Source of the DNA: Aurantiochytrium sp. KH105
Lineage: Eukaryota; Sar; Bigyra; Thraustochytrida; Thraustochytriidae
Direction of reading: 5' to 3'
Length of the DNA stretch: 64,000 bases
NCBI GenBank assembly: GCA_003116975.1
Contig: BGKB01000031.1
Coordinates: forward strand, 372,001-436,000
Of the stretch, positions 4,728-17,050 are shown piece after piece. The notes beneath the pieces are model-generated. The model did no database searches and was not told where the DNA came from. It saw only the letters and a list, made by a program, of their open reading frames with translations. A program made the position numbers and the translations under genes. Position 1 is the stretch's first letter. Every line of letters starts with the position of its first letter.

Positions 4728-7700
4728 TCATTCATTATCTTTCACGAGAACCATGCGAGATCCGCTGACGAGAGCGCTGTCTCTGCGAAATTCAAGGTCC
4801 GCTTCAGGAACAATCTTTGTGGGCACGAGACGATTCCGTTTCGGGCCCTCTGAAGCACGTAAGAGACGGGTTTCGGCTGCGAGTTCGTCAAAAGAATACG
4901 CCTTGGCCACCTCGTCGCTCTCACCCATCATTTCAGGCATCCATTGCCCGGCACGCTTCATCGAATACAGAGAGTCCGAGCCCGAAGTCGCAAGAGGTTC
5001 TCGCCTCATCGAGTGCAAAATCTCCTTGTCCGTCGCAGATGAGCGCACAAGGGGCCCGTTGGCTCGAGACGAGGCATCCGGGCTTCGCGTCAACCACACC
5101 TTGAGCGTTTCGAGTTCGCTTGCGGCCTCATCCGTGTACATGTGTCGCTTGAGCTCATTGTTGAGAGCGTATTCTTGCTTTTTTTGGTGCTGGAAGGACT
5201 CCAACATCAGCGCCTGGAAGAGGGAGAGGAGCACGAAGATCGAGAAGAAGAGATAAAAACCAAGCAACAAGAATCCTGTTGTCCCTGTGAGTAAACTTGG
5301 AACCGCACTTGCGTGAAAGGACTTCCACGGCGCTCCACCAAACATGGACCCGAAAAAGGTCATTGCTGACATCGTTGGACTCTTGAACTCGGGTGCTGAG
5401 GATTGCATGATGGCATATGCGGACATGGAGAACGCCACAAAATTTCCAAGGAACGAAAGTACAATGATCTCCACCTCTCTGCTCACACCCCCAAGTGTTC
5501 GCATAATCACGGCGAAAATGTCGTATCTCGCGCCGCCAAGCTTGGCCATGAGCCCTACACATGTAAAGAACATTGCTGCTACCAGACACGTGTGCGACGC
5601 GTTGCCGGCATTAAAGAGATACTCAAAGGGGTCGTGCGCATATTGGGAGTCTTCTTGGGAACGCGCGTGCCACGCGTTTCCAGATTCCACAACACCCTCC
5701 AAGTATTCGCGCTGTCGGGCAGTGTGCTCAGCATGCAGCACAAGACCCACCAAAGATAAGACCACTCGCGACATCATGCTGGCCGATCGAAGCGAGCGCA
5801 TGTAGCGCCCTTGCGTGTACCACGCGGCCACAGCATACTCAATAACACAGAGAGACCAAGCGATCCAAAGGAGCCCCGTGGCCCAGTGTTGGTGCTCGAG
5901 TTCTATTGCTGAGGTTCGAACGACAACCTCATTGCGCACGGGACCCATGTGGGCCAGGGCGCGAATGACTGCTACCGTGGGCGGTTGGGTCTGCGCAGAA
6001 AGGATCACAAGTTGAAGCGCAAGCCGGCTCGGTTGCAGGTGGTCGGGTTGCTCTCCCATTTTCTGGAACATATCTGAATTGGCCATTTGGCTCGCGCTTC
6101 CTGTATAGTTGTTTGCTTGCCAAAGCATCGTGCGACGGGAAGAGAAGTTGTCAATGTGTACCAGGCCGCTCGTCGTAGCTCGCGAATCGCGAAAGCAAGG
6201 AATCGCATCAATCTGTGTGAGATTCTCGCCCTGAAATCCTGCAATGCTCGCAGCGCGAGCACGAAAGTTTCGTTCCGACACTGCGTCTGTGGTGCAATCC
6301 ACAGCTTCCGGAACCGAAACCAATAAGGTGGGGTAGTCGATGAGCGCAAAGTGTCGACCGAGCCAAGGGAATCCAGGCTCAAGCATCGAATCCTCAAGCC
6401 AGCGGGCAAAGTCGGAAATGGTGCTAAGATGATCGAATTGACTCTGCGTAAAAGTGTCCTGGATCCCGGACGTGAGAGCAAGTGTCGAGGTCACACCCAG
6501 AGAAACCTCGAGAACAAGTGCAATTGCCATGAACACGTGCACAAACTTGGAGAGCAACTTGAGTCCTCGTGACAGCGGTGTCATAGGAGCGTGCGAGAGC
6601 CGTGCGGCAGCCCCACTGAGCTGCGCGAGAAGGCAGAGAGCCCGACGTTGCGCTTCGCGCTGACTGATTTTGCCCACAACATCAATGGGTTTATTTGGAT
6701 CGTATACCACAGGATCGTAATTTTGACTGTGATTTCCGCCAAAACCGTATGTGAGGCTCCCAAAACCACCAATGCTCCCTGTCGGAAAGACGTTGGAGCT
6801 CTGACTCGGATCAAAGGGACGCAACTTGACGATGCTTCGATTGTCGTCGAGAGCATTGTCAATGTCGTGGACGTTGAGGGTGCGAGCCGACCTGGAAAAC
6901 GCAGACGAGGCCGTGGTCCGTTCTACGATTGGCTGTTTCGATGGAGCAAAAAACCCCGGAGGGGTGGCAGAGCCTGCTCGTGGAATAACCTCAATGCGTT
7001 TTTTCTCGAGCAGCCTGTCCAGCAAGTAGCGCGCCTTGGTATCGTGGCAATCTTGCACGAGATCTTTGATAATCGTGACGCTCTCTCCGACGCTAAGGTG
7101 TGCGACCTTGCGGGCGTCCTTTTGTCTGTCATATTCCTTGGAGAAGCGGTTCACAAAATGTTCGAGAAGCCTACCTCGAAGGTTGATGTTACCGCAATAG
7201 GTGTCCTTGTGCTGGCATAGAGCGTGTGCGCTGTCGAGGAAGCGGGCGCTCCCATTGACATTGTAGATGTAACCCTCGTCCAAGAGTTGTTGCGCAATCT
7301 GTATGGCTCTTTCGCGCGGATAAACGTTGCGCACTGACACGCACCAGTCCACAAGCTCCGATGCGACAAAGCAGTGCTTGATGAGCTTTCCGTACGCGAT
7401 TCTGTCCTTGAGCTTTGGGCCCGAGTTGTCGCGAAGCTGGCGATGCAGCAGATTGAGGTCCGAAGGCGCCACGAGCAAGTTCACGGTATAAGGGTGCGCC
7501 ACCCGGAATAAGAGATTCCGGCTGTTCTCGAAGGGTTTAAAGCGCTGCGTTCCGTGCGAAATGAGGCCTCGTGTCCACATTTCTTCGCAGATGAGCACGG
7601 CGAGGTGCTCCGTTGTTCCGTACGTTTTCATGATCCACTGCACAAGCTCGCTCGCAACAAAGCATGCCTTGACGACATACCGCCCGACCCTGCGATCAGC

Positions 7701-7844
7701 AATATCGACCCCGCCATTTCTCTGCATGCGGATCGCAAGTTGTTGGATCTCGAATTGTACTTTATCACGCTCCTCCAGACGCTTGCGCACCGCCACCTCC
7801 TCCTCATTGCGAGCCTCGATGCATATGCCACGCAGATTCTTCAT
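4728..7844 (-). CDS. Two DEP domains fused to a polycystin-like (PKD/TRPP) cation channel
   Basis: Predicted 1038-residue membrane channel. The N-terminal half is cytosolic and carries two DEP domains (about residues 36-115 and 120-215), each with the CFVASELV core followed by Trp, as in Dishevelled/Egl-10/Pleckstrin modules that bind membranes or GPCR partners. A linker of ~200 residues leads to a hydrophobic segment near 430. A ~170-residue extracytosolic loop follows, as in polycystins, then five further hydrophobic segments. Between the last two, the motif TFFGSMFGG lies at the pore-helix position. The final helix ends FQALMLESFQ, matching in layout the S6 end of PKD2 channels. The acidic residue of the PKD2 selectivity filter appears to be Gly here. 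A single exon reads without breaks. TRPML or another TRP-like channel is the alternative for the channel half. Confidence 0.72.
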   Translation of the reverse strand: MKNLRGICIEARNEEEVAVRKRLEERDKVQFEIQQLAIRMQRNGGVDIADRRVGRYVVKACFVASELVQWIMKTYGTTEHLAVLICEEMWTRGLISHGTQRFKPFENSRNLLFRVAHPYTVNLLVAPSDLNLLHRQLRDNSGPKLKDRIAYGKLIKHCFVASELVDWCVSVRNVYPRERAIQIAQQLLDEGYIYNVNGSARFLDSAHALCQHKDTYCGNINLRGRLLEHFVNRFSKEYDRQKDARKVAHLSVGESVTIIKDLVQDCHDTKARYLLDRLLEKKRIEVIPRAGSATPPGFFAPSKQPIVERTTASSAFSRSARTLNVHDIDNALDDNRSIVKLRPFDPSQSSNVFPTGSIGGFGSLTYGFGGNHSQNYDPVVYDPNKPIDVVGKISQREAQRRALCLLAQLSGAAARLSHAPMTPLSRGLKLLSKFVHVFMAIALVLEVSLGVTSTLALTSGIQDTFTQSQFDHLSTISDFARWLEDSMLEPGFPWLGRHFALIDYPTLLVSVPEAVDCTTDAVSERNFRARAASIAGFQGENLTQIDAIPCFRDSRATTSGLVHIDNFSSRRTMLWQANNYTGSASQMANSDMFQKMGEQPDHLQPSRLALQLVILSAQTQPPTVAVIRALAHMGPVRNEVVVRTSAIELEHQHWATGLLWIAWSLCVIEYAVAAWYTQGRYMRSLRSASMMSRVVLSLVGLVLHAEHTARQREYLEGVVESGNAWHARSQEDSQYAHDPFEYLFNAGNASHTCLVAAMFFTCVGLMAKLGGARYDIFAVIMRTLGGVSREVEIIVLSFLGNFVAFSMSAYAIMQSSAPEFKSPTMSAMTFFGSMFGGAPWKSFHASAVPSLLTGTTGFLLLGFYLFFSIFVLLSLFQALMLESFQHQKKQEYALNNELKRHMYTDEAASELETLKVWLTRSPDASSRANGPLVRSSATDKEILHSMRREPLATSGSDSLYSMKRAGQWMPEMMGESDEVAKAYSFDELAAETRLLRASEGPKRNRLVPTKIVPEADLEFRRDSALVSGSRMVLVKDNE

Positions 7845-9270: not shown

Positions 9271-10074
9271 GTTGGCCTATCCCTGCCTTGCAAGTCTAGA
9301 GTCTTGTCATCGGCCCTTAAAATTCCGCCGAAGGATTCATAGATCATGCTAGCTAGCCCTTCCTCGCTCGAGGAAAGCCCTGAACGAAGAGGCAGCTAGC
9401 TATACTAGCTAGCGAGTCTCCTTCTTGCCCCCATTTTACACACACTTAACACATGTAGCCAGCCAGCGGTCCCGAGGCTTGGCTATCCGGCCTACGAGCT
9501 AGCTGCCGGACTCGCTTCTGTGCGCGCGCTTGCTTTTCCGGCGATGCGTCGCTCATCTACATCTACAAGCAAGCGAGTGAGTCCGTTAGCCAAGCTTGCA
9601 AGCTCAGTCAGACATGTCGTCCCGTCCACCTGCCCATTGACTGTCGGGTCCCCACGAATGACCCTTTTGGTGTTCGCTCGCCACACTAGCAGCTAGCTCT
9701 AGAGTAGCGCGTTAGACCGAAAATAAGTTGCAATCGTGACGCTTTATAAATCCGCACCCTCCTTTTCCTTGACTGTGACGCGGCGGATCCTCTTCGTTCT
9801 CGGAACCAGAACGGAACGATCCCGGATCGCAAAAATTACCATCCTCTTCCTCCGTCCAACTCAAAGACACTCACCGTCAGGTTGGCCGAGCAGAGTCTGC
9901 CGACAAACCTTGAACTCATTCCATCTTCGAAGGTATACAGCCCGCCCGTATACCTTTCATTTGGCCACGTACAGCAACGCGCAACTCTTGCACTCACACG
10001 AGCAGGAAAGAAAAGAAAAGAGAAGAAACAGGGAAAAAGTTTACATTCCTGGTAAGGAAAGAAATCGCGAGACC
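9271..10074. other. Intergenic region, NDUFA8 3' side and RNA-repair gene 5' side
   Basis: No gene seen. A set of CTAGCTAG-type short repeats and a small perfect hairpin (TTCCTCG-CT-CGAGGAA) lie around 9347-9415. The frame of the next gene stays open upstream to 9736, but that extension is unconserved-looking and basic, so I regard it as 5' UTR. Confidence 0.55.
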
Positions 10075-13000
10075 ATGAGGCCCGCAATGGACGTGGTGAA
10101 CCGCATCCTCTGGGACGAACGTCTCCCCGATCACGCCTTTGTCGTCGGATACCTCGATCGCTTTGTGGGGGTCAAGGAAAAAGCCATCTCGGCTTTCAAT
10201 TTCCACGATGATCTCGGCAGCATCAGCCACACCGAGACAGCCATTCCACAAACGCGCATCCAATATCTCAAATATGTGCACCAAGATGGATCGCGTCTCG
10301 TTTGGGATCGACGTCCAGAGACTCGCGCCGACGATTTTTTTGGCAGCTTCCCACGCGGAAATGGAACCAACATTGAGCAGATCATGGCTCGACATCCGCC
10401 CCGAAATACATCTGACGAGAATGCTGCCTCGGCAAACCCAGAACGCGCAATCAATGGCTTGAACGCTGGGAACCCAGACAGGCCAAACTTTTTTGTATGC
10501 TTTCGTGTGCTATCGCCGCGGATCGTGAAAAGGGCTCAAGAGATGCAGCTGCTCTCCCCAGAGGCTCATGAAGGTGCGCTCCCGACACACCGCTTGCATT
10601 TTACAATGCTCACGCTTCGCCTTCGAAACGAACTCGAGCTGGAACGCGCACGTGAAGCATTGGCAACCTTTGACATTGGCAAGTCTCTGTCGTCTGATCA
10701 GCCAATTCATGTGCGAGGCGTGGACTGCTTTCGAGATCGCGTCTTGCATGCGCGAGTTGATCCCGCTGATGGAAGTTTGCGAGCGCTCCTCCATCTTCAC
10801 GAAGCCCTTCGCAACCACATGATTGCAGCACTTGGCGTCCAGGCTTGGAAAGGACAAGACCAGCAGTCGTTTGTCCCACACATGACCATCACCAAGTGCA
10901 ATCGTGAAATGTCCCGCCGGGGCGCCTTTTTTCATTCAAGCCTTTACAGCCCTCTCGCAGCGCAGAGCCTTGGTAAAGTGCGGGTTCGCGCGCTTCATCT
11001 TTGCCGTATGGCTGCGCCCACTGACCCGAGCGAATTTTACGAGACCTTTGGCTCGAGCATACCGAACCTGTCCCGCTGGAGCGAAGACGACGAAATCCTC
11101 GGCACAGACGTCATCTCTTGGGAAGAAGCCCAGCAAGGAAAAGCAAAAGCGCTGCGCGCGCGGGGACGCCAGGTGCTCAAGAAGCGCGGAACACTTGTTG
11201 TGGTACGAGGCTTCGCATGCGCCAGTAAAGACGCTTTCATGCAGAGCGAGTATCCGCAAGGAAAACGCTGTTCAAGCTCTTCGGCCTTTCGGGCTGCCAT
11301 AACGTCGGAAGCTGCTGACCAAGAGGACGCCACAATTCTTTTGAGCCAAGATTTTGGGCAAATCTGGGAGTACGAGGGAGCCCTTCAGCTTGCCAAAGCA
11401 GCTGGCTTTGAGTGTCAGGTTGTCCAACCTTGCCGCGGGTACAAGGCGTGGTTTGAAGAGGCCTTGAAAAGCGGCCATTCAATGAAGAAAGCTCTCCAGG
11501 TCGCAAAGCTCGCGCTTTCCTTTGAGCACGACCCGGCTTCGCTCTGGTTCCCTTTGCGCACGGCCGGTCCGATGCCTGCACCGCAAGAATTGTACGTGTT
11601 TGACTTTGATCACACGCTTTTCGATACGGCAGATCCCGTCGGCCAATGGCGGGGACGTGGTGGACTCTTTGTTTCGCTTCCGCTTTCGCTGCAAGACGAG
11701 ACAACAGTCAGCCCCGGGCCGGCTTTGGCATCCTGGAAACGTGCCCTTGAGCGCCCGCACGCAACCATGGTGGTCCTTACGGGTCGCAAAGAAATTTTGG
11801 AGCCGCAAGTACGGTCAATTCTCGATCGTTACCAGCTTGTACCCGATGCACTTCTGATGAAACCCGCAGACACCTTTCAGTCGGCATCATTTAAAGCCAC
11901 CAAGGTGCAAGAGCTCAGCGAACTCGGTTTCTACTCCGTTTCATTTTTCGATGACGACCCTCTCGCACGCGAGGCAGTTTGCCAGCGAATGGCAGGTTGT
12001 CCTGCCTTCCGCAGCATCGACGCGAACAGTTTGCGCAGAGAGGACGCGGGTCAAGCCGCCGAAAGTTCACACAATTTGCACGAGGCCGCACTCTGCGCGG
12101 TCACGCGTCAACTGCACGAGCTTGTTTCCAAGGCCCACCCCGAGATGCTTCAAGTCGACCCCGAGGCGCTCGCGATTGTCTTTGGCTCGACCATGTACGG
12201 CCGCGAGTCAAACGATCTCGATGTGTGTCTCATTTGCCCCCACGTCGATGTGGCCGGCGGTCTTTTGCAAGCCCTCTATGACCGTCTCCGACGCGGATCA
12301 ATTTTACGTAGGGATCGCAGCGAAGAGATGCGCGTCCTTGACTCTCATCTTGCCAAGCGATCGAAGTGCCCGCGCATCGCAATGCACGTGCAGCACATTG
12401 CTAGTTGTGAGACCTTTGACGTGGACATTGTCCTGGCTATGTTGGACCCAAGTCGCGCCGTGGAAAGATTTTGCAATGCGCCAAGTACTCACACGTATGA
12501 CAAGACAATTCTTGAGGAATGGCGATCAATCTGCGTCGACAAGGCCAGTGAACGGAGCCTTGAAGGCGCGATCTTCGGCGCCGGTCTAATCGCGCGAACC
12601 GAGACCGCCTGTGGTGCTCTTGGACCGCATCTCATGCGTGCGCTCGTGGACAAGGCTGATGAGCGTCTCGTGGCGCATGGCCTTCGCGGACGACATTTAC
12701 AAATGATACGCACATTTCAGATTGCCATGCTTGTGGTGACCTTTTTGGAGGATCCGCAGACCGCGGTAAGAGGACTCGATGAAGCTGACGCGCTCTTTTC
12801 AGAGTTTTCAAACTATCTCGCAATCTCTCTGACCCAAGAATCCTGGATGCAGGTGCTCGTCGGCTTGCATGACCCGGAATTCGCAGAGTGCCACGCAATG
12901 TACCTTCCTCGGCTCATTGCAGCTTTTCGTGGGGATCCCATCCAGGTCATTTGCCCGTACCTTGCATATGCTCATTTTCAGATCGAGGTCCGTACGCGAA

Positions 13001-13338
13001 GGCCATGGAAGGCGCGTCTCCAGCTCGAAGCTGGATTTCCGCGAGTTTTACGCTCCCTCTCATCGCGCGGAAGCATTTTTGTTTCAGGTGCTGGCCAGCT
13101 TCTATTTCTGCGCGAAGCGACACCTTTTGATGGTTTCTTCTGCGCAGTCATCGACCTATACCTCGCTGTTTCTTCAGATCATCGTGACGACGGTAGTGGT
13201 GCCTCGGCGCTACGGCTTCTCGAGCAGGAGGTCTCGCAGCTCCGCTTGCCCGAGAGCACTTTTGCACGGGTTTTTCTCTCCGAGCAAGTGAACAAGGTCT
13301 TCTCTGCGACTTCATGGTGCGATCCGACTGAGTTTTAG
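10075..13338 (+). CDS. Multidomain RNA end-repair protein ('Swiss Army Knife' type: MJ1316, 2H phosphoesterase, HAD, nucleotidyltransferase)
   Basis: A 1087-residue protein with several RNA-end-processing modules in one chain. (1) Residues ~3-85 resemble the MJ1316/DUF504 RNA cyclic-phosphate end-recognition domain. (2) Residues ~135-280 are a 2H phosphoesterase (AKAP7/LigT-like) with both HxT motifs, H175-F-T177 and H269-M-T271. (3) Residues ~360-480 resemble an N4BP2-type polynucleotide kinase, but the P-loop is degraded. (4) Residues ~505-655 are a HAD phosphatase with D510-x-D512, the VLTGR motif and FFDDD. (5) Residues ~680-1000 contain a pol-beta-type nucleotidyltransferase with FGS at 703-705, D714-x-D716 and a third acidic site near D782/D784. 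The start at 10075 follows GAGACC and begins the conserved domain. Known families imply cyclic-phosphate opening, phosphate removal and nucleotide addition; the combined role is inference. No intron. Confidence 0.82.
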   Translation: MRPAMDVVNRILWDERLPDHAFVVGYLDRFVGVKEKAISAFNFHDDLGSISHTETAIPQTRIQYLKYVHQDGSRLVWDRRPETRADDFFGSFPRGNGTNIEQIMARHPPRNTSDENAASANPERAINGLNAGNPDRPNFFVCFRVLSPRIVKRAQEMQLLSPEAHEGALPTHRLHFTMLTLRLRNELELERAREALATFDIGKSLSSDQPIHVRGVDCFRDRVLHARVDPADGSLRALLHLHEALRNHMIAALGVQAWKGQDQQSFVPHMTITKCNREMSRRGAFFHSSLYSPLAAQSLGKVRVRALHLCRMAAPTDPSEFYETFGSSIPNLSRWSEDDEILGTDVISWEEAQQGKAKALRARGRQVLKKRGTLVVVRGFACASKDAFMQSEYPQGKRCSSSSAFRAAITSEAADQEDATILLSQDFGQIWEYEGALQLAKAAGFECQVVQPCRGYKAWFEEALKSGHSMKKALQVAKLALSFEHDPASLWFPLRTAGPMPAPQELYVFDFDHTLFDTADPVGQWRGRGGLFVSLPLSLQDETTVSPGPALASWKRALERPHATMVVLTGRKEILEPQVRSILDRYQLVPDALLMKPADTFQSASFKATKVQELSELGFYSVSFFDDDPLAREAVCQRMAGCPAFRSIDANSLRREDAGQAAESSHNLHEAALCAVTRQLHELVSKAHPEMLQVDPEALAIVFGSTMYGRESNDLDVCLICPHVDVAGGLLQALYDRLRRGSILRRDRSEEMRVLDSHLAKRSKCPRIAMHVQHIASCETFDVDIVLAMLDPSRAVERFCNAPSTHTYDKTILEEWRSICVDKASERSLEGAIFGAGLIARTETACGALGPHLMRALVDKADERLVAHGLRGRHLQMIRTFQIAMLVVTFLEDPQTAVRGLDEADALFSEFSNYLAISLTQESWMQVLVGLHDPEFAECHAMYLPRLIAAFRGDPIQVICPYLAYAHFQIEVRTRRPWKARLQLEAGFPRVLRSLSSRGSIFVSGAGQLLFLREATPFDGFFCAVIDLYLAVSSDHRDDGSGASALRLLEQEVSQLRLPESTFARVFLSEQVNKVFSATSWCDPTEF

Positions 13339-13879
13339 GAGAGTAAAGAAAGAATGATGGTGGTTTCGTCCTGAACTTGACTGCTGTGTGTGTGGTTCTA
13401 ACTGACACGTGAAAGGACGTGCTTGGGGGAGAGAGGAGGATTTTGTCCGAGAGAGAAGACAGAAATGAGCAAGAACTGCAATTTCGCTTCGCGAGAATAG
13501 CTTACATGTTTCCACAAGAGCGACATTTTCAACAGCGTTCTGTCCAGTACTTTCTCAAGCGTCACCTTTGTCTTGTAGCTGCATATGCACCTGGGCGCGC
13601 TCATTCGTCTCGCAGTCGGCAACCAGGCCAACAACACCATGACTCTTGCAACAAGTTGTGCTACACTCGGTTACACTTATAATGAAGGAGGGAATGCGGG
13701 GAACGGGCCTCTTGGCGGGTGGTCGCGAGGCAATTCTGCATCGAGACGAACCCGATTCCGCTCGCGGTGGTGGCTGCGCTCGCGGGCGAGGCCGGGCGAG
13801 GCGCTGCGAAGGCAGAGTCGGAGCAGCGGGAAAGCGTCTGCAAAGGGCGGAGTCAAGTCTAGACCCAGCGACGGACAAG
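13339..13879. other. Intergenic region upstream of the DRS1-like gene
   Basis: No separate gene seen. The helicase frame stays open upstream to 13646, but the added residues are Arg/Gly-rich without family resemblance and are treated as 5' UTR. Confidence 0.5.
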
Positions 13880-16800
13880 ATGGTCCGCGAGGTGGCGGGC
13901 TTCGTGCTCACCATCGAGAGCGACGACGAGCGGGACTCCGAGGAGGAGGAGGAGGTCAAGAAGACCAAGGCCGGCAGCAGCAAGAGCAAGGCCGACGGCA
14001 AGACCAAGGGCGTGGAATCAAAGGCTGACAAGAGCAAGGCGCAGTCTGCCAAGGTCGCGGAAATTGAGAAAAAGAAACAAAGCAAGGAGAGCAAGACTGC
14101 GAGCGAGGAGGCCGTCTCCGAGACAAAGTCCAAGACTTCGCGGCGCCTGCCTGCTAGCCTTTCATCCCTCGTGTACTCTGCCGGACCTAAGACTACGTCA
14201 AAGGAGCGAAGCGGGTCAAAACAGGAGCAGACCAACGGAATAAAGAAGCAAAAGGACGAAGGCAAGACGAAGGAACCCGAAGACGAGGAAGAGGCTGATG
14301 AAGGTGGCAAGAGCGACGACGACGACGACGAGGAGGAGGACGATGACGATGAGGAAGCCGAAGTCGAGACCGATGGACCGGCGCTTCGCGGAAGCATGTT
14401 CCTTGATGATCTTGACGATGACGAGGATGAGGAGGACGAGGAGGAGGAAGTGATGCCCGAGTCCTGGGACTTTACCAGCGCAATCGAGCGAATTCGCTCC
14501 AAGGAAGACCCTTCGCAACAAATGACAACCTCACTCGATGATAAAATCCAACGGGCACTTCGCGCTCGGGCGCTCCGACAGGCCAAGGAGGAGCTTGCGC
14601 AGGAAGGCAAACTCCGAGGCAAGGCTTCCAAGAAGGCTGTCGCAAAGGACAGCAATGAGGAAGACGCCAGCGACGACGAGGAGGAAAACAGCGATGCCGA
14701 GGGCAATGCCGCGGACGATGCCGCAATGCGCGCCCGCGCCGACGAGATCCAGGCGCGTGCGGCTGCAGTCGCCGCTGCGGAGCTTGCGAGAACTTCCCGT
14801 GCCGAAGGTGAAGACGACAGCGACGATGACGACGATGACGAGGACGCGGCAGGCGAGGATTTCTCGCGCGAAATGGGTACGAATTCCGAAGTGCTCGAAA
14901 AGGTGCGTGCGCGCACGAAGAAGCGCATGGAGCAAATGGAAAAGGAAGCGAAAAAGAACAAGGTCCAGGCAGCGGCCATCGAGACGTTTGCGCAGCTGAA
15001 CTTGTCGCGGCCGCTGATTCGTGCGACGCAGGTGCTCAAGTTTGAGAAACCGACGCCCATTCAGGCGCGCTCGATTCCGTACGCAATGGCAGGTCGGGAT
15101 ATTTGCGGCAGCGCAGCGACGGGTTCGGGCAAAACAGCTGCCTTTGTGCTCCCCGTTCTTGAGCGTCTCCTCTACAGACCGAAGCGACTCAAGGCGACTC
15201 GTGTGCTCATGGTGACCCCGACGCGCGAGCTGACGCAACAGGTGCTGAGCATGACGGAGGCGCTGGCGCAGTTCACAGACATCACGGCAACGGCGGTAGT
15301 GGGCGGTCTGAACATGGACGCGCAGGCACAGGAGCTACGTGCTCGGCCGGATATTGTGGTGGCAACGCCTGGCCGGCTGATCGATCATGTACTAAACACC
15401 AAGTCGGTGGATCTAGACGATGTCGAAATTCTGATTCTCGATGAGGCTGATCGTCTGCTTGAGCTCGGATTCCACGACGAAGTCATGCAGCTTGTTGATT
15501 TCTGTCCCAAGAACCGCCAGACGCTGCTCTTTTCGGCAACCATGACGACTTCTGTGAATGAGCTTGCGGACCTGAGTCTGCGTCGTCCTATTCGCGTGGA
15601 AACAGACCCGCTGTACGATATGGCCAACCGTCTCGTGCAGGAGTTCGTGCGCATCAAGCCTCAGCGCGAGGGCGATCGGGAAGCAATGTTGCTGGCGCTG
15701 TGCAAGCGAAGCTTCACGAGCAAGGTGATTATTTTTTTCCGGGCCAAGGTGCGTACGCACAGATTCGGGATCCTGTTTGGACTGTTCGGGCTCAAGGCAG
15801 CAGAGCTGCATGGCAACCTGACGCAGCGCCAGCGCCTGGAGTCTCTGCAGCAGTTCCGCGACGGCGAGGTCGACTTTCTTCTTTGTACAGATGTCGCGTC
15901 TCGCGGTCTGGACATCAAGGGCGTGGAAGTGGTGATCAACTACGAAATGCCGAATGACCTTTCGACATATGTCCATCGCGTTGGACGTACTGCGCGTGCG
16001 GGCCGCGGAGGGCGGGCCGTGACGCTGACAGGCGAGCGCCAGCGCAAGCTGACAAAGGAGGTCCTGCGTCGCTCGCAGCAGAACGTCAAGAGCCGCACGA
16101 TCCCGGACAGCGTTGTGGAGGCACTGCGGGAGCGTGTTGCCGACTACGAAGAGGAAATTGAGGACGTCTTGCGGCAGGAGCGGGTGGAGCGCGAGCTGCG
16201 GGGCGCCGAGATGGACGCCAACCGTGCGCAGCGGCGCATCGAGAACCGCGAGGAGATCTTTTCCAAGCCGCGCCGCACGTGGTTTCAGTCGCAGCAAGAA
16301 AAGGAACTGATTCGGCAGACAGCGCGCGAGAAGATGTTCGAGGCGGATGCGAAGGCCGAGGACCAGACGCCAGCTGGGCGTGCCCGCGCGCGGCGTCAGG
16401 CGCTCAAGGACGCAGAGGCAGCGGCTTCTGGGGAGAAGAAGGAAAAGAAGCCACACCGACTGACTCGCGCAAAGCGGCGGCGACTCGCCCAGCTCGAGGC
16501 CATGGACGCCGCCGCAAATGCAGAAGCCGAGGCTTTTGCTGATGATGGAGACCGTGATGAAACCAAGCGGGCGCCGAAGAAGCGCGCCTCTGACTATGAA
16601 GACATGCTGCGGAAAGATGAATCCAAGGTGGCAGCCTCTGCGCGCGTGAACAAGCGCAAGCTGCGCGAGCAGGATCAAGAAAAGTATACAACTTCGATTG
16701 ACGAGTCCGAGGCACTCAAGCAGGAGAAGCGCAAACAGAAACAGGCACAGAAGCGGGCTCAGGCCGGGGAGACCGGGGACGACGATAACGCCAAGCGCAA

Positions 16801-17050
16801 GGCGGATAAACCGCTCAAGAAGCGCGTCAAGTTTGGCGGCGGTTCGTTGGCAGGGTTCGGCTCGGAGCTGGCTCCAGGCGAGGGTCTGAACATGCTCGAC
16901 GCGCGCACGCGCAAGAAGAGCCGGAAGAACTCGGCAATGGGCGAGGCGCCGATCTTCAAGGAGGCAGATCTGTCCAAGGGTGGCCTTCGTAAGGGCGGCA
17001 AGATGGGAAGCAGCAAGTTCAAGTCCAAGAAGAAGTTTAAGCGTAGGTAA
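13880..17050 (+). CDS. DRS1: DEAD-box ATP-dependent RNA helicase, DDX27/Drs1 family
   Basis: Nucleolar helicase for pre-rRNA processing and 60S subunit assembly (known role of Drs1/DDX27). The 1056-residue protein has a highly charged acidic N-terminus (about residues 1-330), then the full helicase motif set: Q motif PTPIQ, ATGSGKT (413-419), PTRELT, TPGRL, DEAD (521-524), SAT, VIIFF, TDVASRGLDI and HRVGRTARAG. The long Lys/Arg-rich C-terminal tail, predicted coiled and ending KFKSKKKFKRR, is characteristic of Drs1. The start at 13880 begins MVREV and lies in AAG-ATG-G context; an upstream in-frame ATG at 13646 would add 78 residues that look like UTR. It is one exon of about 3.2 kb. The acidic repeats produce long spurious serine-rich frames on the other strand. 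Confidence 0.93.
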   Translation: MVREVAGFVLTIESDDERDSEEEEEVKKTKAGSSKSKADGKTKGVESKADKSKAQSAKVAEIEKKKQSKESKTASEEAVSETKSKTSRRLPASLSSLVYSAGPKTTSKERSGSKQEQTNGIKKQKDEGKTKEPEDEEEADEGGKSDDDDDEEEDDDDEEAEVETDGPALRGSMFLDDLDDDEDEEDEEEEVMPESWDFTSAIERIRSKEDPSQQMTTSLDDKIQRALRARALRQAKEELAQEGKLRGKASKKAVAKDSNEEDASDDEEENSDAEGNAADDAAMRARADEIQARAAAVAAAELARTSRAEGEDDSDDDDDDEDAAGEDFSREMGTNSEVLEKVRARTKKRMEQMEKEAKKNKVQAAAIETFAQLNLSRPLIRATQVLKFEKPTPIQARSIPYAMAGRDICGSAATGSGKTAAFVLPVLERLLYRPKRLKATRVLMVTPTRELTQQVLSMTEALAQFTDITATAVVGGLNMDAQAQELRARPDIVVATPGRLIDHVLNTKSVDLDDVEILILDEADRLLELGFHDEVMQLVDFCPKNRQTLLFSATMTTSVNELADLSLRRPIRVETDPLYDMANRLVQEFVRIKPQREGDREAMLLALCKRSFTSKVIIFFRAKVRTHRFGILFGLFGLKAAELHGNLTQRQRLESLQQFRDGEVDFLLCTDVASRGLDIKGVEVVINYEMPNDLSTYVHRVGRTARAGRGGRAVTLTGERQRKLTKEVLRRSQQNVKSRTIPDSVVEALRERVADYEEEIEDVLRQERVERELRGAEMDANRAQRRIENREEIFSKPRRTWFQSQQEKELIRQTAREKMFEADAKAEDQTPAGRARARRQALKDAEAAASGEKKEKKPHRLTRAKRRRLAQLEAMDAAANAEAEAFADDGDRDETKRAPKKRASDYEDMLRKDESKVAASARVNKRKLREQDQEKYTTSIDESEALKQEKRKQKQAQKRAQAGETGDDDNAKRKADKPLKKRVKFGGGSLAGFGSELAPGEGLNMLDARTRKKSRKNSAMGEAPIFKEADLSKGGLRKGGKMGSSKFKSKKKFKRR

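Follow-up and report, generated by a model that had tools for sequence, protein, structure and literature searches.

A predicted multidomain RNA 3′-end repair protein encoded by Aurantiochytrium sp. KH105

A 1087-codon gene was analyzed in a 64,000-nucleotide stretch of the thraustochytrid Aurantiochytrium sp. KH105 (assembly GCA_003116975.1, contig BGKB01000031.1, positions 372,001 to 436,000 of the forward strand; the window). The gene encodes one constrained chain with an MJ1316 domain, an AKAP7-type 2H phosphoesterase, and a HAD phosphatase with intact catalytic motifs, and a predicted nucleotidyltransferase (NTase) palm of the poly(A)-polymerase (PAP) type follows. The product is probably a multidomain "Swiss Army Knife"-type enzyme for RNA 3′-end repair, which would clean RNA ends and then extend them.

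The gene and its alleles

The open reading frame is uninterrupted, with an ATG at 10075 and a stop codon at 13336–13338. Its coordinates are exactly those of the single RNA end-repair protein that an earlier note had proposed here from the letters of the window. The assembly is 76 Mb in 367 contigs, and neighboring genes in the window are eukaryotic (DEP/ion channel, RCC1, DEAD helicase, and prenyltransferase). Features of the gene, in window coordinates, are as follows.

10075..13338, + strand: whole gene, 1087 codons; open frame in both alleles, all six tested segments under purifying selection, no intron needed
10075..10311, + strand: MJ1316 RNA cyclic-end recognition domain, residues 1–79 (PF04457, 8.3e-20)
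10483..11055, + strand: AKAP7-type 2H phosphoesterase, residues 137–327 (PF10469, 5.6e-21)
10597..10605, + strand: first HxT motif, H175-F-T (motif inspection)
10879..10887, + strand: second HxT motif, H269-M-T (motif inspection)
11188..11523, + strand: tentative degenerate P-loop polynucleotide-kinase-like segment, residues 372–483 (Foldseek and HD-Pnk profile)
11209..11232, + strand: P-loop-like GFACASKD, residues 379–386 (K kept, S replaces G before K)
11572..12030, + strand: polynucleotide-kinase-type HAD phosphatase, residues 500–652 (D510/D512, T569, K607, D626/D627)
12109..12444, + strand: predicted PAP-type NTase palm, about residues 679–790 (GS704, D714/D716, D782/D784)
12472..13335, + strand: C-terminal region, residues 800–1087, possible remote PAP central domain (weak hhalign register)

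A second allele on contig G000:C93 is 97% identical and retains all 1087 codons. The DNA flanking both copies aligns at 95–97% over long pieces, and the copies form a pair as expected of two haplotypes. They differ at 102 nucleotides, 70 of them at third positions, with 65 synonymous and 37 non-synonymous differences. The ratio of non-synonymous to synonymous substitution rates (dN/dS) is 0.168 overall. The six segments span 0.07 to 0.42 (MJ1316, 0.415; 2H, 0.093; kinase-like, 0.071; HAD, 0.106; NTase, 0.331; C-terminus, 0.242), single-segment values resting on few changes. The reading frame is constrained end to end. The entire frame is intact and under purifying selection in the second allele, so this is one gene and not two, and the division into separate genes that the earlier note named as a possible objection is ruled out. 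Upstream of the ATG, the frame is open back to 9727 in the window allele. The second allele has a stop codon six codons before the equivalent ATG, so 10075 is the likely start codon and a GTG start at 9736 is rejected.

Domains of the protein

The MJ1316-like N-terminus and the 2H phosphoesterase had both been noticed earlier, and both exceeded their Pfam cut-offs. The MJ1316 domain scores 71.7 bits (cut-off, 26.3) and is described as a recognizer of RNA 2′,3′-cyclic ends (PMC6514570), in agreement with its Pfam name. The 2H segment scores 75.8 bits for AKAP7_NLS (cut-off, 24.4) and carries both HxT motifs. It also matches 2_5_RNA_ligase2 in Pfam (3.9e-10) and AKAP7_NLS chain ms64 in the PDB (1.8e-6). 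LENG9 combines an AKAP7-type 2H domain with MJ1316 and a CCCH zinc finger. The window protein has the first two in common with LENG9 and differs in its N-terminal MJ1316 and its additional HAD and NTase; no zinc finger matched in Pfam at E up to 10.

The HAD domain holds the four catalytic motifs of the polynucleotide kinase/phosphatase (Pnkp) type: DFD at 510, TGR at 569, K607 (from the alignment), and DD at 626. It matches PHROG_415 at 9.6e-9. That match is independent, whereas the HAD sets in our shuffle tests include proteins fetched by similarity to the query and are partly circular. The HAD with its DxD was thus correctly recognized in the earlier note, but its link to the Swiss Army Knife type is weaker than implied there: HAD_SAK_1 scored 13.5 to 17.5 bits, below the cut-off of 25.6. 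Genome-wide, HAD_SAK_1 matched only at this gene, at 15.9 bits, with silent positive controls. By fold and sequence, the domain is closer to polynucleotide-kinase phosphatases than to HAD_SAK_1. The Pfam names of PF10307 and PF04457 refer to Swiss Army Knife RNA repair proteins, which have in common with the window protein MJ1316, 2H, and HAD in one chain and a predicted role in RNA end repair. The kind is therefore already known through the Pfam HAD family of that name, and the combination of this HAD with a PAP-type NTase appears as a variant.

A kinase-like segment, absent from the earlier note, sits right before the HAD, which is the kinase position in Pnkp. Pnkp1 is a kinase plus phosphatase (PMC4411300). 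Both Pnkp1 and T4 polynucleotide kinase/phosphatase have the order suggested here, a P-loop-kinase-like segment followed by a HAD phosphatase, although they lack MJ1316, 2H, and NTase domains and the window segment lacks a standard P-loop. Its GFACASKD, identical in both alleles, departs from GxxxxGK[ST]. Residues 345–665 were folded with five HAD rows in the alignment, and in this model the kinase half has low confidence (block predicted local distance difference test, pLDDT, 31–61). Foldseek placed kinase-HAD fusions at ranks 1, 2, 3, and 5, over 309–316 columns with root-mean-square deviations of 17–21. The VIA-align alignment to T4 Pnkp covers both domains and that to Pnkp1 covers the HAD only. 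An HD-Pnk profile was equaled or exceeded by 36 of 5000 shuffles and 7 of 185 segments of real proteins, and a pooled kinase profile by 68 of 5000 and 8 of 185. Both were picked after a cyanobacterial operon kinase (below) had been seen, among several profiles tried, uncorrected. A T4-type kinase profile (255 of 1000 shuffles as high) and AAA_33 (65 of 1000 shuffles, 14 of 171 real-protein segments) were not significant, and 72 of 200 shuffles scored as high in hhalign. A DNA pattern for the DNTN-type kinase motif found only four unrelated loci in viral contigs, and the kinase-HAD segment compared with phages gave 244 records with a best E of only 0.01. These results are only suggestive of a P-loop kinase that lost its P-loop. 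Tentatively, the segment is probably left over from a kinase-phosphatase fusion and would no longer phosphorylate 5′ ends.

The NTase motifs GS704, DLD714, and DVD782 fit a Pol-beta palm (GS, DxD, and the third Asp), and the Asp residues are conserved in the second allele. The GS and DxD reported in the earlier note therefore stand. The Pfam profile is weak: the closest family, MTPAP-like_central, scored 19 bits (E 0.0016), below its cut-off of 27. In the profile comparison that the note had proposed, MJ1316 and 2H thus exceeded their Pfam cut-offs, and HAD_SAK_1 and the NTase palm scored below theirs. A custom palm profile combined the PAP and the Trf4-like protein of this genome with five cyanobacterial proteins; its score for the segment was reached by 2 of 5000 shuffles and by none of 171 segments of other window proteins. 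An NTase palm of the PAP type, a nature the note had not mentioned, is a moderately supported prediction. The C-terminal 288 residues have no Pfam match. Compared by BLASTP with the PAP of this genome, the window protein gave nothing usable, and an AlphaFold model of residues 655–1087 made without an alignment was left unused (pLDDT 36). Alignments of residues 345–1087 (with HAD and PAP fragments) and 655–1087 (with cyanobacterial PAPs) were discarded, as the PAP part was out of register.

Cyanobacterial counterparts

A tblastn search of plasmids with the whole protein gave one record (E 0.04), the MJ1316 domain of Calothrix protein NIES22_69490. This protein has 991 residues, is encoded on a plasmid typed as conjugative, and is annotated as an RNA 2′,3′-cyclic phosphodiesterase. 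It contains MJ1316, Exo_endo_phos (EEP), 2_5_RNA_ligase2, PAP_NTPase, and PAP_central, each over cut-off. The MJ1316 domains share 35% identity over 81 columns, and significant BLASTP similarity between the two proteins is confined to this domain. The Calothrix chromosome carries another copy of this gene (L049:822-3563, genome G001), with a shorter frame of 914 codons.

An MJ1316 alignment search retrieved 12 cyanobacterial loci, one of which (L030, identical to L028) is the Calothrix gene itself and another (L041) nearly identical to it. The same search of viral contigs gave no match, and no close relative of the whole protein was confirmed in viral contigs. Coding lengths are 977–1051 residues in 11 of the 12 loci and 426 in L040. 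Of five scanned for domains (L028, L036, L037, L039, and L040), four have the full MJ1316-EEP-2H-PAP set, whereas only MJ1316 and PAP were found in L040. The reduced L040 protein (L040:4881-7278, from a cyanobacterial metagenome-assembled genome) lacks EEP and 2H and stands behind a two-piece HD-kinase gene, which may reflect decay or an assembly error. At the first 2H motif, L036 has HIT where the proteins of Calothrix and Argonema have HIN (translations of L036, L038, and L030).

The cyanobacterial proteins, at about 1000 residues, likewise have MJ1316 first and 2H before a C-terminal PAP-type NTase. They carry EEP between MJ1316 and 2H, whereas the window protein has the kinase-like segment and HAD between 2H and NTase and no EEP match in Pfam at E up to 10.

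Genes for an RNA ligase and an HD plus AAA_33 kinase lie directly upstream on the same strand in 3 of the 12 loci (L031, L033, and L038). The ligase was identified as PF09414 by Pfam in L031 and L038 and by tblastn in L033, and the P-loop of the HD-kinase corresponding to the window segment reads GLPGAGKD. The gene row is an apparent RNA-repair operon:

L031:3826-8997, L033:3850-9012, L038:4032-8976: RNA ligase, HD plus P-loop kinase, MJ1316-EEP-2H-PAP

This neighborhood suggests another role for the window protein, as a factor that heals RNA for a separate ligase: it would prepare 3′ ends and fill in lost nucleotides, with additions that are short repairs and not tails. In a contextual network that includes Thg1, CCA-adding/poly(A) polymerases and RNA ligases also occupy similar positions (PMC2904730). 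However, none of the window genes scanned proved to be a ligase, and a genome search at E 0.01 gave no RtcB match (controls positive in 9 of 14; PF09414 ligases were outside this genome search). RNA_lig_T4_1 likewise had no genome match, though its controls were silent as well. We regard this role as unlikely.

Among 386 genomes sampled from the phylum, four have an MJ1316 match, the centre genome included. In Aurantiochytrium, MJ1316 occurs at one place per haplotype and the gene is under steady purifying selection, as would suit a housekeeping RNA 3′-processing enzyme, for example an organellar one, that acts on programmed cleavage products rather than on damage. The pair ANGEL2 and MTPAP of animal mitochondria (PMC9525292) is a precedent for such a role, and C12orf65-MJ1316 fusions in eukaryotes (PMC6514570) also speak for it. 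The cyanobacterial counterparts show an accessory pattern instead, being sparse, in one case on a conjugative-typed plasmid, and in three in a repair operon, and a housekeeping role is an unlikely reading. Both this role and that of a ligase's healing factor overlap with the cleaning and extending of 3′ ends and differ from it chiefly in purpose; hence their likelihoods need not add up to one.

Proposed role

We return to the repair enzyme that cleans and then extends 3′ ends. In the mechanism proposed for it, MJ1316 would dock an RNA end with a 2′,3′-cyclic phosphate and the 2H domain would open the phosphate. The polynucleotide-kinase-type HAD would take off the remaining phosphate to give a 3′-OH, which the PAP-type NTase would then extend with nucleotides. 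In phage RNA repair, the proposed order is 2H opening followed by HAD dephosphorylation (PMC7824862), and ANGEL2 must strip a 3′ phosphate before MTPAP can polyadenylate (PMC9525292). Because one chain holds all the parts that match the MJ1316, phage-repair, and ANGEL2 precedents, healing of a cyclic-phosphate end followed by extension is proposed here; we infer the substrate, the order of steps, the nucleotide added, and the purpose. ANGEL2 and MTPAP likewise act by 3′ phosphate removal and then polyadenylation, but they are two proteins with an EEP phosphatase in place of HAD, and MJ1316 and 2H are outside their description in PMC9525292.

The earlier note had the protein recognize, open, and remove the cyclic phosphate and add nucleotides. 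This sequence of steps fits the domains and is strengthened by the counterparts beside RNA-ligase and HD-kinase genes, but the label of a self-contained healing machine for RNA or tRNA overstates it: the G before K of the P-loop is lost and nothing is specific to tRNA. Since no ligase domain was found in the window protein and it probably has no working 5′-kinase, it is predicted to heal and tail 3′ ends and not to be a complete repair machine.

A bolder proposal, possible but tentative, is that one polypeptide converts a ribonuclease-type 2′,3′-cyclic-phosphate end to 3′-OH and tails it at once, so that cleaved RNA would be marked or extended rather than resealed. It would be built on a kinase-dead Pnkp platform, and cyanobacteria would follow the same plan through the non-homologous EEP phosphatase.

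Several points weigh against cleaning followed by tailing, whose steps are deduced from domains and whose activity is predicted. PAP_central was not detected by Pfam in residues 655–1087 or in shorter pieces; the genome's canonical PAP scores 154 bits for this family. A full-length PAP profile was weak (6 of 1000 shuffles as high), and in an hhalign PAP test of residues 655–1087 a plausible register was weakly found, with 29 of 200 shuffles as high. Because PAP_central is undetected and the full-length tests are weak, the NTase could have a product other than that of a poly(A) polymerase. Nine of the 12 cyanobacterial loci showed no ligase and HD-kinase pair in the flanks examined, with upstream flanks of just 3.4 and 1.6 kb in two of them; among the nine, L040 has a lone HD-kinase and the other eight have neither gene in these flanks. 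LigT-type 2H enzymes leave a 2′-phosphate. If the 2H domain does so here, the HAD would need to accept a 2′-phosphate, and the genome encodes Tpt1 2′-phosphotransferase, which could do this step. Tpt1/KptA domains occur as a tandem pair within one open frame, on two contigs of the genome (G000:C155:160001-161269 and G000:C72:299326-300594).

AKAP7-type 2H enzymes can act instead on 2′,5′-oligoadenylate, which also counts against RNA repair. The window protein could then be a nucleotide-signal enzyme, its 2H domain degrading 2′,5′-oligoadenylate-like messengers that its NTase makes or modifies. The PAP region of a cyanobacterial counterpart matches an oligonucleotide cyclase in PADLOC (1.9e-7), but the window protein itself matched nothing in PADLOC at E 0.1. 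We know of no role for MJ1316 or a polynucleotide-kinase-type HAD in such signaling, and this reading is quite improbable.

The literature searched, which did not cover Burroughs and Aravind 2016, gave no description of a single chain that combines MJ1316, 2H, and HAD with a PAP-type NTase. Cleaved cyclic-phosphate RNA is usually discussed as a substrate for resealing. A chain that ends in a PAP-type module and not a ligase offers a testable alternative, to heal and then extend. The cyanobacterial counterpart, in which an unrelated phosphatase takes this step and ligase and kinase genes lie alongside, provides a bacterial system for testing, and a gene annotated only as a cyclic phosphodiesterase would gain a function. 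The use of HAD in one protein and EEP in the other would clearly exemplify non-homologous replacement within a single repair chain.

Directly downstream of the repair gene, on the same strand, is a DEAD-box helicase gene (13643-17050, +). An antisense 501-codon frame at 13555-15060 has no Pfam match and is probably spurious. At 4728-7844 (−), a single frame joins DEP domains to a polycystin-type ion channel region.

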